The notes under the pieces were generated by a model. It was not told where the DNA came from. It worked only from the letters and a program-made list of their open reading frames with translations, and did not search any database. A program made the position numbers and the translations under genes. From a bacterium (lineage in GTDB: Bacteria; UBA9089; JAHJRX01), in contig JAHJRX010000020.1 of the NCBI GenBank assembly GCA_018830565.1, positions 1-57,102 of the forward strand: DNA of 57,102 bases, written 5' to 3'. Positions 4,318-55,426 of the stretch are shown one piece after another; position 1 is the stretch's first letter; the number at the start of each line of letters is the position of its first letter.

Positions 4318-4348
4318 TATAGCACTTATTAATGAAAATTTGACATAG
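4318..4348. mobile_element. Solo terminal repeat of MITE family A
   Basis: This 31-bp stretch matches, in reverse complement, the right terminal repeat of the copy ending at 20021 (it begins TATAGCACTTATTAATGA and ends GACATAG). Only one end is present, so this is a decayed or truncated copy lying downstream of the U32 gene. Confidence 0.6.
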
Positions 4349-4403
4349 TGCATTTTTAATCTTTAAATGATATTTTAATCTTTAAATAATTATAAAATTT
4401 TAC

Positions 4404-32892: not shown

Positions 32893-32937
32893 AAATTACC
32901 TTCCCGTCTAATAAAAAAGCACATTTAGGCTCATTTA

Positions 32938-33089
32938 CATGCAATCCATTAATTAAGTTGACATACCTCGTAGGGAAAATCCACCCCCTAACCCCCGCCA
33001 GCGGGGGACAGCCTCGTGGATGTCCCCCGCTGGCGGGGGTTAGGGGGTGGAAATACAACTATTATGTCAAGTTATTTATCAGATTGCAT
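32938..33089. mobile_element. MITE family B, copy 1 (GC-rich palindromic core)
   Basis: Outer ends ATGCAATCCATTAATTAAG and CTTGACATA-type arms form an imperfect terminal inverted repeat (TTGACATA on the left, TATGTCAA on the right, ATGCAATC/GATTGCAT at the tips). The core is a GC-rich palindrome, CCACCCCCTAACCCCC / GGGGGTTAGGGGGTGG, around CGCCAGCGGGGGACAGCC and a short loop. It is strikingly GC-rich against the AT-rich background. Non-coding. It sits between the hybrid kinase and ruvB. Confidence 0.85.
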
Positions 33090-39114: not shown

Positions 39115-39230
39115 TATAGTAGTTATTAACGAAAACCGGACATAGGAAATAATACCGAGCAATAAAAGATAAACTTGTTTGCCCTCAAATTAATTTGCTC
39201 TATGTCAAATTTTCATTAATAAGTGTTATA
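39115..39230. mobile_element. MITE family A, copy 2
   Basis: 116 bp. Left end TATAGTAGTTATTAACGA, right end TTTTCATTAATAAGTGTTATA, internal GGAAATAATACCGAGCAATA and TTGTTTGCCCTCAAATT shared with the other copies. It abuts MITE B copy 2 (one base between them). Non-coding. Confidence 0.88.
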
Positions 39231-39231
39231 T

Positions 39232-39422
39232 ATGCAATCTGATAAATAACTTGACATAATAGTTGTATTTCCACCCCCTAACCCCCGCCAGCGGGGGACA
39301 GCCTCGTGGATGTCCGTTGTTTCGTTGCCTTTTTCGGACAGGGACAAGCTTATCCCCCGCTGGCGGGGGTTAGGGGGTGGATTTTCCCTACGAGGTATGT
39401 CAACTTAATTAATGGATTGCAT
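39232..39422. mobile_element. MITE family B, copy 2 (outer arms inverted relative to core)
   Basis: 191 bp. The outer left arm equals the reverse complement of the outer right arm of copy 1, and vice versa, but the core CCACCCCCTAACCCCC...GACAGCCTCGTGGATGTCC runs in the same direction as in copy 1. About 40 extra bases (including GTTGTTTCGTTGCC and GGGACAAGCTTATC) lie in the loop. Non-coding. No other gene is seen between 39087 and 39546. Confidence 0.85.
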
Positions 39423-50216: not shown

Positions 50217-50251
50217 ATTTCCTATGTCTAATTTTCGTTAATAACTACTAT
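50217..50251. mobile_element. Solo terminal repeat of MITE family A
   Basis: TTTCCTATGTCTAATTTTCG followed by TTAATAACTACTA matches the right terminal repeat of the copy at 53546-53661 with one change. The rest of the element is missing. It is just upstream of the first Maf gene. The remaining gap 50054-50216 shows no gene. Confidence 0.6.
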
Positions 50252-50274
50252 TTGAGATTTTAAAAAACACTTAT

Positions 50275-51783
50275 ATGTACTATGAAAAAAATATAACTTT
50301 ATTAAGACAACTTTATCCTTATCTTTATGAAAAATTAAAAGAATTTTCTACCCAAGATCTCATTATCTACAACTCCCGGATACAAGCTCCTACTTTAAGC
50401 ATCAAAAGACAAGGTAGAGAAATATTTCTTCATAGTCAATACAATCCCCAAAAAGAAGCTCAAAGGCAAGTAAGTGCTCACTCTTTATCTCTTGGAGATA
50501 AAGTAGTTCTCTTTGGTGGTGGCTTAGGATATTTCATTCCAGAAATCTTAGCTAAGATTACCTCCGCTGGAACTTTGCTGGTTATTGAGCCAAATCTTTC
50601 AGTATTTAAAGTAGCTTTGGAATTAGTTGACTTTTGGTCTTATCTCTCTAACCCTCAACTGGTATTTTCGGTCAGCGATAACTTAAAAGAGATCACAAAA
50701 GATCTCCATAATTTTCTTAAAAAGACTCCTCCTGATAAGATTAAGATTGTTATCCATCAACCTACCTTAGAAAGTCTTCCTTCCTCTCTCTCTGGTCTTG
50801 AAGAATTTTTAAGAAATATTATCTTGTCACGTAAATCTTCTCAAGTCTTTACCCCTCTTTTAAAGAAGAATCTCTACCTGAATACTAAGTATATTATTGA
50901 AAGCCCTGGAGTAGCGGAGTTATTCTCTAAATGCAGCCATCTGCCTATCTTCGTAATTTCTGCTGGCCCTTCTTTAGATCAAGAGACCTGTCTCTTGTCA
51001 AGGATTCAAAGTCAAGTAATTATTATCTCCGTCGGCACAGCCTTAAGACCCTTATTAAATAACGAGATTGTTCCTGATTTTGTAGTCATTACTGATGCCC
51101 AAGAAGCTGTTTTGGAGCAATTTAAAAACCATCTTCACCAAGAGATACCTTTAATTTTCATTCCCACCGCTTATCATGGAGTAATTAAAGAGTATCAGGG
51201 TAAAAAAATTGTGGCTTTAATAAAAGATGAATTTTCTTTAGAGGATTTAAAAGATTTATGCCAATTAAAAGGTGAAATTGAAACAGGAGGTTCTGTAGCT
51301 ACAGCTAGCTTAGATCTAGCTATTCGGATGGAAGGAAATCCTATTGTTTTAGTAGGTCAGGATCTTTCTTTTCCTTCTTGTAAGCCTTATGCTCAAAATA
51401 CTTATCACTTTGACCAGAGCTTAAATAGCCTTAATAAATTTACTACCTTAGAGATGATTTATCGGGAAAATGCCAAGAGAGGAGATCTTCTTGAAATTCC
51501 TAATATCCACGAGGAAATAACTATTACTCATCGTAATCTTTTAATTTACTTAAGATGGATTGAAAGTAGAATAAGAAGGGAAAAAGATAAAATATTTATT
51601 AATACCTCAACTGAAGGAGCTAAGATTAAAGGCTCTATCAGTTTAAGTTTAAGAGAGGTTTACGAACGTTACTGCTTGAAAAAGATCGACAAGGATATAA
51701 CTTTACCTAAACCAATTATTCCTGAAAGCCAATATCAAAGATGGAAGATGGCGCTGGAAAGCTTAGGAGGAGAAAGACTATGA
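50275..51783 (+). CDS. Maf-type motility-associated glycosyltransferase (DUF115), paralogue 1
   Basis: 502 residues. The DUF115/MptE-like core shows the family motifs IFVISAGPSLDQE, EIETGGSVATASL and VLVGQDLSFPS. Maf proteins transfer pseudaminic- or legionaminic-type sugars to flagellin before export. It is the first of three tandem paralogues and is shorter than the other two. It overlaps paralogue 2 by 4 bases (ATGA), so the pair is translationally coupled. The sugar donor is unknown. Confidence 0.85.
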   Translation: MYYEKNITLLRQLYPYLYEKLKEFSTQDLIIYNSRIQAPTLSIKRQGREIFLHSQYNPQKEAQRQVSAHSLSLGDKVVLFGGGLGYFIPEILAKITSAGTLLVIEPNLSVFKVALELVDFWSYLSNPQLVFSVSDNLKEITKDLHNFLKKTPPDKIKIVIHQPTLESLPSSLSGLEEFLRNIILSRKSSQVFTPLLKKNLYLNTKYIIESPGVAELFSKCSHLPIFVISAGPSLDQETCLLSRIQSQVIIISVGTALRPLLNNEIVPDFVVITDAQEAVLEQFKNHLHQEIPLIFIPTAYHGVIKEYQGKKIVALIKDEFSLEDLKDLCQLKGEIETGGSVATASLDLAIRMEGNPIVLVGQDLSFPSCKPYAQNTYHFDQSLNSLNKFTTLEMIYRENAKRGDLLEIPNIHEEITITHRNLLIYLRWIESRIRREKDKIFINTSTEGAKIKGSISLSLREVYERYCLKKIDKDITLPKPIIPESQYQRWKMALESLGGERL

Positions 51784-53576
51784 ACTATTATCTTCAAAAT
51801 ATTAATCTCCTAAAAAATAAAGATCCAGAATTAGCAACCAGACTTGAAGACCTTTCTTTTAGCAAGGGCAAAATTTTTATTTCAGAAGATCTTTCGATGA
51901 AGGATGAGGATTGCGATGTCTTGGTAATCTTTGGTTTTGGCAATGGCAGCCAGGTTAAAGAAGCCATTAAGCATGCTTCCAAAAAGATTTTAGTCTTAGT
52001 CATTGATCATGATATTGCAAATTTTAAAAACATTCTTACTCTCTACGACTTGAAGGATATCTTCAACCACGAAAGAGTGAGCTTAGCTATTGGTGAAGAG
52101 CCGTTAAAAGCTACTCGAATACGGATGGAAAATTATTTTCAGGTAATAACGATCAAGGATATTATCGTGATTGACCTTTATAAAAACCAAGTAAATCCAG
52201 CTTACTATCAAGAAATTATAAAACACTTAAATGAATCTATAAACGCTTCTCTCCAAAATATTGCCACGATGTCTGAGTTTGCCTCTCTTTGGGAAAAGAA
52301 TATCTTAGCCAACATTAGTTATTTAGTCTTAAATCCAGGTCTTAACTTATTAAAAGATAGCTTTAAAGACTTTCCAGCCATTATTGTTTCAGCTGGTCCT
52401 TCTTTAGATAAAAATGTAGGTCTTTTATCCGAAGCTAAGAATAAATCCTTGATTATCTGTGTTGATACTGCCTTAAAGACACTCCTTGCCCATAACATCA
52501 AACCTGAGATCGTTGTTTCTATTGATCCTAAAGAAGAAAACTTTAAACACTATCAAGGCTCAGGGATAGAAGGAATTACCTTAATTACTGAACCAGTAGT
52601 GTCATCCCAGATATTTTCTTTATTTAAAGAAAACCTGATCTTTATCACCAGTTATGGTCATCCTTTAATGATGTGGATAGAAGATATTATTGGCTCAAAA
52701 GGCACTTTTCCAGTAGGAGGGTCGGTAGCGACTACAGCTTTTAGCATAGCCAGAGAATTAGGGAATAACCCCATTATCTTTATCGGGCAAGATCTTTCTT
52801 ATAGCAAGGACAGAGTTTATTCTAAAAACACTTTCTATATGGATAACTGGATAAATTCTATGGACAAGTTTTTGACCTTAGAAACGATAACGAGAAACTA
52901 TCTTCAAGAATATAATCTTATTTATGTAAAAGGTAATTACGAAGAAAAGGTTTTAACTAATAGTCAAATGGCCTCGTGGGCTAAGTGGTTTAGCCATCAA
53001 TTTAAAAACACCAAGTCTTTGTGTATTAATGCTACCGAAGGTGGAGCTAAGATAGAAAACTGCGTTACTATGTCTTTAAAAGAAGCTATAAATAATTACT
53101 GTCAGCAGATCCAAGATCCTAAAAATATTCTCCAAGATCTTCATCGAAGGTACAAGACTCCAGATATTGATAACCTTATCAAGAAGATAAAAAAGGTTTC
53201 CGATGATTATTTATTAGCCGAATATTATGCTCAACAAGCCATAGAAACAACTAAGCGCTTAGAAAAGACTTCTCAAAATCTCCTTTCTCAAAAAGACAAT
53301 TTTTCTCAAAGAGAACTAAATTTATTGCAACACATCAATATGCTCTATGGAGAATTAAAAGTGATGGAGAATGTGCTGATGATTTCACGTTGGCATCTTG
53401 ACCCTTTATTAATTAAGTTAAATTCTATCAGAGATAGTTCTTTAGGCGGACAAATAGAGATATATAATTTATTCTTTCAAAAGATCTTAAGTATTAGTCA
53501 AAATATAAACAGTCAATTTTTAAAAGCTACGGAAATACTCCAAAATATAGTAGTTATTAATGAAAATTTGACATAG
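51780..53576 (+). CDS. Maf-type motility-associated glycosyltransferase (DUF115), paralogue 2
   Basis: 598 residues from the ATG at 51780, which has AGGAGG at a good distance. An upstream in-frame ATG (51741) lies within paralogue 1 and is rejected. Core motifs are IIVSAGPSLDKNVG, PVGGSVATTAFS and IFIGQDLSYS. A helical C-terminal ~130 residues extends beyond paralogue 1. The last nine codons and the TAG stop are supplied by MITE A copy 3 (reading IVVINENLT), so the original C-terminus has been replaced. Confidence 0.85.
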   Translation: MNYYLQNINLLKNKDPELATRLEDLSFSKGKIFISEDLSMKDEDCDVLVIFGFGNGSQVKEAIKHASKKILVLVIDHDIANFKNILTLYDLKDIFNHERVSLAIGEEPLKATRIRMENYFQVITIKDIIVIDLYKNQVNPAYYQEIIKHLNESINASLQNIATMSEFASLWEKNILANISYLVLNPGLNLLKDSFKDFPAIIVSAGPSLDKNVGLLSEAKNKSLIICVDTALKTLLAHNIKPEIVVSIDPKEENFKHYQGSGIEGITLITEPVVSSQIFSLFKENLIFITSYGHPLMMWIEDIIGSKGTFPVGGSVATTAFSIARELGNNPIIFIGQDLSYSKDRVYSKNTFYMDNWINSMDKFLTLETITRNYLQEYNLIYVKGNYEEKVLTNSQMASWAKWFSHQFKNTKSLCINATEGGAKIENCVTMSLKEAINNYCQQIQDPKNILQDLHRRYKTPDIDNLIKKIKKVSDDYLLAEYYAQQAIETTKRLEKTSQNLLSQKDNFSQRELNLLQHINMLYGELKVMENVLMISRWHLDPLLIKLNSIRDSSLGGQIEIYNLFFQKILSISQNINSQFLKATEILQNIVVINENLT

Positions 53577-53661
53577 AGCAAATTAATTTGAGGGCAAACA
53601 AGTTTATCTTTTATTGCTCGGTATTATTTCCTATGTCTAGTTTTCGTTAATAACTACTATA
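53546..53661. mobile_element. MITE family A, copy 3, inserted in the 3' end of Maf paralogue 2
   Basis: 116 bp in the opposite orientation to copies 1 and 2. Its ends TATAGTAGTTATTAATGA and TCGTTAATAACTACTATA are near-perfect inverted repeats over about 30 bp (TTTGACATAG against CTAGACATAG inwards). The inner segment has GAGGGCAAACAAGTTTATC. Its first 31 bases are read as coding sequence of paralogue 2. Confidence 0.9.
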
Positions 53662-53689
53662 AAAAGTAACTTAATTATTAAGGGATTAC

Positions 53690-55426
53690 ATGGACTATTA
53701 TCATGATAATTGCTTACTTTTAGCTAAAAAAGAACCTTTGCTGGTAGAAAAATTAAAAGATGTACCGGTGGAAGACTCTTGCCAAGAAATTAAAGGGATC
53801 GTCTCTTTTGGATCAAAAGAGATTAAGGAGGCTGACTTATTGGTAATATTAGGCTGGGGAATGGGTCTTTGTTTGGAAAGCATTCTAAAGTTATGTTCTC
53901 CTAAGACATTTATCTTAGTGATTGAAGAAAGCCTTAGTCGTTTTAAGGATGTTCTTTCTAAAAGAGATCTCTCGGTTATCATAGAATGCGAAAGAATAAG
54001 TATCTCGGTAAATGAAAGCCCATTTATAGCAACTTTACTTCGATTAGAAAGATATTTTTCTGTCCTTACCTTCAAAGAAATGTATGTTATCGAGCACCTT
54101 CCTTCTATAAAAGAAAATCCTAAGTATTATCAAGAAGTAGAAGCTAAATTAAAAGAAGCCCTATATATGGCCACCGTTAATGTAGGTACTTTTTTACGTT
54201 ATGGTGCTATCTGGAAAAACCATATCTTAACTAATTTTCCTCTTATCTTAAAACATCCTGGAGTAAATTGCCTAAACCATAAATTTAAAGAATTACCTGT
54301 TATTATTGTTGGCGCTGGCCCTTCCTTAGATAGAAATATTACTACTCTTAAAGAAGTTAAAGATACAGCTCTTATTATTTCTACTGATACAGCTTTAACG
54401 ACCATGCTTAAAAATAAGGTCCTACCACATCTTGTTATGACTGTAGATGGTACTATCAAGAATTTTACTAAATGCTACCAAAACCTTGATATTCCAAAAA
54501 ACATCTTTCTAATCTCAGATTTAATGGCTTATCCTGAAACATTTTCTAAGTTCTCTTCTGAAAAGATATTTATCTTAAACGATGGCCATCCTTTACTCCA
54601 ATGGTTGGGAAGATTTGCAGGTTTTGATAGCTATATTCCCCGAGGAGGAAATGTATCTACGGCTGCCTTTAATTTAGCTTTAAGATTAGGCAGTAAGACT
54701 ATTATCCTCATTGGTCAAGATCTCTCTTTCCCGGGAGGAAAATTTTATAGCCAAGGAATTGTAAAAAAGACAAGCAGGTATTTAAAAAATAACTTAGACT
54801 CTTCTCAGTTAATGGAAATTCAAGATATATTTGGCCATAAGTTGACTACTTCCAGGACACTCTATGGTTTTATTAAGTGGTTTGAAAATCGGATTGATCA
54901 CCTTGATATTGACGGCATAAACGCCACTGAAGGTGGAGCTAATATCCAAGGATTTAAAAATCTTTCTTTAAAAGAAGCTATCAAAGATTACTGTCTAAAA
55001 CCTTTTCCTATTTACGAAACCCTTCAAAGTCTATCATCTAACTTTCAAAAACCAGTAATTTCTCCTCTTTTAGAGAAAATTAATCAACTTTCAGAAGAAT
55101 ACCAAATGGTAAATATTTTATGCGACCAAGCTTTAAATATCATCAAAAGATTTCTTTTTGATTCATTGAATAGTTCTTACTTTAATAATCTTCTCTGGCG
55201 CTTAAATGACCTTAAAAAAGAGATTGTTAGTCTTGAAAATTTTATATTTTGTGAAAGATTTCAGATGGAACCTTTAATTCACCAATTAAGTAATCAAGAA
55301 GAAGATATTCCTTTTTTAGAAAAAGTAAAAACCATCAAGACTATCTTTTTTAGGCTTCAATATATAAGTAAACATACTCTTTTCTTGCTTGAAGATTTAA
55401 AAATGGCATTTCAAGGGACTATCTAA
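53690..55426 (+). CDS. Maf-type motility-associated glycosyltransferase (DUF115), paralogue 3
   Basis: 578 residues with core motifs VIIVGAGPSLDRNIT, IPRGGNVSTAAFN and IILIGQDLSFPGG. It is closest to paralogue 2 in layout, including the NATEGGA block and the helical C-terminal region. A MITE separates it from paralogue 2. It is followed one base later by kdsC. Several Maf proteins in one genome often act on different sugars or different flagellins. Confidence 0.85.
   Translation: MDYYHDNCLLLAKKEPLLVEKLKDVPVEDSCQEIKGIVSFGSKEIKEADLLVILGWGMGLCLESILKLCSPKTFILVIEESLSRFKDVLSKRDLSVIIECERISISVNESPFIATLLRLERYFSVLTFKEMYVIEHLPSIKENPKYYQEVEAKLKEALYMATVNVGTFLRYGAIWKNHILTNFPLILKHPGVNCLNHKFKELPVIIVGAGPSLDRNITTLKEVKDTALIISTDTALTTMLKNKVLPHLVMTVDGTIKNFTKCYQNLDIPKNIFLISDLMAYPETFSKFSSEKIFILNDGHPLLQWLGRFAGFDSYIPRGGNVSTAAFNLALRLGSKTIILIGQDLSFPGGKFYSQGIVKKTSRYLKNNLDSSQLMEIQDIFGHKLTTSRTLYGFIKWFENRIDHLDIDGINATEGGANIQGFKNLSLKEAIKDYCLKPFPIYETLQSLSSNFQKPVISPLLEKINQLSEEYQMVNILCDQALNIIKRFLFDSLNSSYFNNLLWRLNDLKKEIVSLENFIFCERFQMEPLIHQLSNQEEDIPFLEKVKTIKTIFFRLQYISKHTLFLLEDLKMAFQGTI

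Follow-up and report, generated by a model that had tools for sequence, protein, structure and literature searches.

The window, that is, the whole stretch of 57,102 nt of bacterial DNA analyzed here, carries a cluster of Maf-like genes, and a small palindromic element lies between two of them, overlapping the 3' end of Maf paralogue 2 (Table 1). In a profile search, the 611-aa open frame of this gene matches PF01973 (residues 186-356) with 155 bits, the cut-off being 34.6; this domain places the product in the Maf/MptE-like class, so that its putative activity would be the transfer of a nonulosonic acid to flagellin. Although the listing of open reading frames puts an upstream ATG at 51741, the start at 51780 is the more likely one, because it is preceded by aggagg and opens with the same M-N/D-Y-Y pattern as paralogue 3. 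The predicted structure of the protein, built from the three paralogues of the window, was too poor for use (mean pLDDT 49).

Table 1. Features at the 3' end of Maf paralogue 2 and around it (window coordinates).
Feature	Position	Strand	Details
First Maf paralogue	50275..51783	+	PF01973 and Maf_flag10_N
Maf/MptE-like glycosyltransferase gene (Maf paralogue 2)	51780..53576	+	598 aa; PF01973; orthologue L032, 62%
MITE copy	53546..53661	+	116 nt including the outer TA on each side; 98.3% identity to family consensus
Left terminal inverted repeat	53546..53576	+	gives the Maf gene its final nine codons and TAG
Element-derived codons IVVINENLT and TAG stop	53547..53576	+	reading frame
Right terminal inverted repeat	53631..53661	-	inverted-repeat search
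Right-hand TA	53660..53661	.	putative TA target duplication, the other half being 53546-53547; TA at outer edges of full-length copies
Next Maf paralogue	53690..55426	+	PF01973; ATG 29 nt past the element

The two arms of the element, each of 31 nt, are 90% complementary and enclose 54 nt. The first base of the element is the T of an AAT codon (N589), and all the codons that follow lie within the left arm, giving the protein end ...KATEILQN-IVVINENLT-TAG. Hence, the arms and the reading frame confirm the original prediction that a MITE arm supplies the last nine residues and the stop codon of this gene. The ribosome-binding region of the next Maf paralogue lies outside the element, which, being 116 nt long and having stops in every frame close to either end, encodes no transposase.

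This sequence is repeated well beyond chance. In particular, the 116-nt query retrieved 40 scored copies from the same genome (40 of 135 candidates were scored), 90-100% identical to it along the whole or most of its length; the copies with at least 80 aligned nt number 66, or 72 if shorter pieces are counted. An internal 38-mer of the element occurs in 64 places of the genome and nowhere in the reversed-pattern control, and the arm pattern in 187 places as compared to 12. Full-length copies, tallied only where the alignment reached both ends, show TA at both outer edges. Being short, framed by terminal inverted repeats, devoid of a transposase and present in many near-identical dispersed copies, the element is a MITE. 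Its RNA is predicted to fold very stably (-43 kcal/mol, z -8.6), as might a host regulatory hairpin, i.e., a terminator or an mRNA end that belonged to the gene all along and was never a mobile insertion. Such an origin is, however, refuted, and its probability is negligible: near-identical copies adjoin many unrelated genes, a search of 53400-53760 gave no terminator-like site, the orthologous gene in the related genome G001 lacks a copy at its end, and a transposase remnant occurs in a longer element whose ends are similar.

This longer element, of 291 bp (locus L066, same genome), shares 28 and 26 of 31 bases with the MITE at its two ends. It contains a DDE_3 remnant (C14:12320-12457; Pfam, 31.9 bits against a cut-off of 28.6), and its translation includes YSPDLNPIEELW, a motif typical of IS630/Tc1-mariner transposases. 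Because this piece of DDE_3 lies between similar ends, the source of the MITE is likely to have been an IS630-type transposon. The TA edges, the short AT-rich inverted repeats and the existence of a longer relative carrying a DDE_3 remnant are all shared with MITEs derived from IS630/Tc1-mariner elements, which target TA; unlike those, the present family has no intact partner that could be found in the genome of the window (G000), and a search of G001 for an intact transposase with these ends gave none either, the DDE_3 gene of G001 having no matching ends. Within the same family, the comparison covered G001 only. This genome contains ten partial matches to the left end, of which nine span 44 nt and one spans 69 nt, along with a 296-bp element whose ends are similar and in which no clear coding sequence is seen; the full-length 116-nt element was not found there. 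Thus, the ends of the element probably predate the expansion of the 116-nt form. A 27-mer of the MITE had no exact match in other named genomes of the genome contig database, from which the window's own genome is possibly left out. A broken IS630-type transposase gene elsewhere in the genome (L065, about 780-1850; G000:C44) has ends that do not match the MITE family.

The 3' end of Maf paralogue 2 can then be envisaged, with a probability of about 0.92, as the product of an insertion: a non-autonomous IS630-type (Tc1/mariner-like, TA-targeting) MITE, presumably mobilized by an IS630 transposase, would have entered a TA among the final codons of the gene, so that translation would now run nine codons into the left arm and end at the TAG of the element. 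That it ends within the arm would follow from the fact that all three frames of the arm stop within 31 nt. IS630 elements duplicate TA at their target. Since TA is also seen at both edges of the element, the preferred reconstruction of the ancestral end, conditional on the presumed duplication, is the one in which the flanks are joined with one TA kept, which gives N-K-K-stop; joining the flanks with no duplication assumed gives K-K-V-T-stop, and a TATA duplication would give 16 residues from N589 before the stop.

It is also conceivable, if very improbable, that the element landed just past a natural stop that a later point mutation or indel then removed, letting the frame run on. Many copies do lie no more than 30 nt downstream of a stop, the comparable enhC case in Coxiella is tied to an indel in the account given in PMC5896051, and the copy at G000:C8:11009-11125 (L019, around 1501-1617), which has the natural end of the neighboring gene on both sides, demonstrates that a close insertion without loss of the stop does happen. 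For the Maf gene, however, the flanks joined with one TA kept reach a stop two codons past the junction, making a second mutation unnecessary. The C8 copy is bounded by a 16-nt direct repeat, which includes the stop codon of the neighboring dehydrogenase gene and contrasts with the TA edges of the other copies.

The orthologue L032 (G001:C43, from the nearest genome compared) is 62% identical over residues 1-590 and carries no element at its end; immediately upstream of it lies a Maf-1-like match, the same arrangement as in the window. Comparison with an orthologue lacking the insertion had been proposed as a check, and it bore the prediction out: L032 aligns up to the insertion point (N) and continues as FRQYSKIS-stop, a tail unrelated to IVVINENLT, so that the proteins are of 597 and 598 aa, respectively. 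The last eight residues of L032 match none of the three reconstructed ends, and a part of this difference may reflect ordinary drift, the orthologue being only 62% identical. A different palindromic repeat occupies the spacer after the orthologous gene (L032 3360-3455; G001:C43:4125-4220; 40 scored matches in that genome) and is an independent insertion into the same spacer. Flank matching among the fetched loci for a true empty site yielded only self-matches and a neighboring repeat, and no close orthologues of Maf paralogue 2 were found in the genome contig database.

Whether homologous C-terminal sequence continues past the element had been proposed as a further check. Across 12 relatives, taken from the 30 loci of the homologue search (L031-L060) after removal of the window's own locus, incomplete matches, second paralogues and genomes from other phyla, nothing is conserved past the junction, the tail being variable or, in three of them (L034, L042 and L044), absent. 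Loss of a conserved C-terminal sequence can accordingly be rejected. If the preferred N-K-K-stop end is accepted, about two codons would have been exchanged for nine in an unconserved tail at the natural end of the protein, a change that would be nearly neutral. Of the "recent re-ending" originally claimed, the first word is reasonable (two of 116 bases differ from the consensus, and G001 yielded no full-length element), and the second holds for a minimal change at a naturally variable end.

Nor is this gene special among those ended by the element. Open frames of 60 codons or more run into 14 of the 132 element sides; nine of these frames match a Pfam family above the cut-off and five match none. 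Seven of these nine end within the element, so that Maf paralogue 2 is joined by six other recognized genes, those for an HD-domain protein, RibBA, an ABC permease and glycosyltransferase-28-like, DciA-like and FMN-reductase-like proteins; the other two, the FMN-dependent dehydrogenase at C8 and SerS, whose stop is at the element border, are doubtful cases. The reconstructed ancestor of the HD-domain gene ends at the same residue. A comparison of the homologue ends of two other genes gave no clear signal on the TA target duplication.

Special targeting of gene ends was considered and rejected. Insertions in the last ten codons account for seven of 65 copies (11%; the 66 copies minus one, at ribBA, called "inside"), and 468 of 2620 permitted TA sites (18%), i.e., those intergenic or in the last ten codons, lie in such positions, the genes in this count being open frames of at least 100 codons from a rough caller that omits the 96-codon DciA-like gene; these seven copies, called by position, are not the same set as the seven Pfam-recognized genes. 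As the observed share does not exceed that expected from random TA insertion, such re-endings would arise without targeting. Where both ends of a copy are intact, all three frames are stopped by nt 31 in 90 of 94 element ends, as compared to 1100 of 20,000 random 31-mers of the window. Being a property of one repeat sequence, this is a single observation and no evidence of selection; nearly any frame that enters the element is lengthened by no more than about ten codons.

C-termini supplied by MITEs have been published, and the Maf gene is a further example. In the account of Delihas 2007 (PMC2759123), RU-1, likewise a small palindromic, TA-flanked element at a gene 3' end, replaces the normal stop of the amidase gene ECA3499 of Erwinia carotovora and provides the C-terminus, extending the protein past its conserved domain; that extension is longer (ending at 496 rather than 461), whereas the Maf gene receives nine residues from an arm that stops all frames at once. 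Similarly, PMC5896051 describes QMITE2 as the source of the C-terminus of enhC in Coxiella burnetii Dugway and lists many overlaps with gene ends, other copies overlapping by a few bases; there, 33 residues are supplied, the stop lies past the element, and the element family is another one. The Maf case suggests that TA-targeting MITEs could reshape bacterial gene 3' ends with hardly any cost, because every frame is closed by the element ends within some ten codons and the tail is unconserved in relatives.

A regulatory effect acquired after the insertion is possible. The final nine codons and the stop of Maf paralogue 2 are predicted to lie within a long, nearly perfect mRNA stem, and cutting of the QMITE2 stem by RNase III is proposed in the Coxiella study (PMC5896051). 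By analogy, RNase III might cut the arm stem here, producing non-stop messages and less Maf enzyme relative to the neighboring genes, with the arms serving the seven ended genes as a portable 3'-end regulator; we consider this improbable. If it were true, insertions would be well tolerated owing to the stops that both ends place in all frames.

Two minor observations concern the surroundings of the element. Single MITE ends without a partner arm are found in the window at 4318-4352 and 50218-50252, the second directly before the first Maf gene. A second repeat, starting at about TATATGCAATC and containing CCCCCTAACCCCCGCCAGCGGGGG, abuts several MITE copies, including the ribBA copy, and occurs in the window at 32913-33011, 39216-39310 and other sites.
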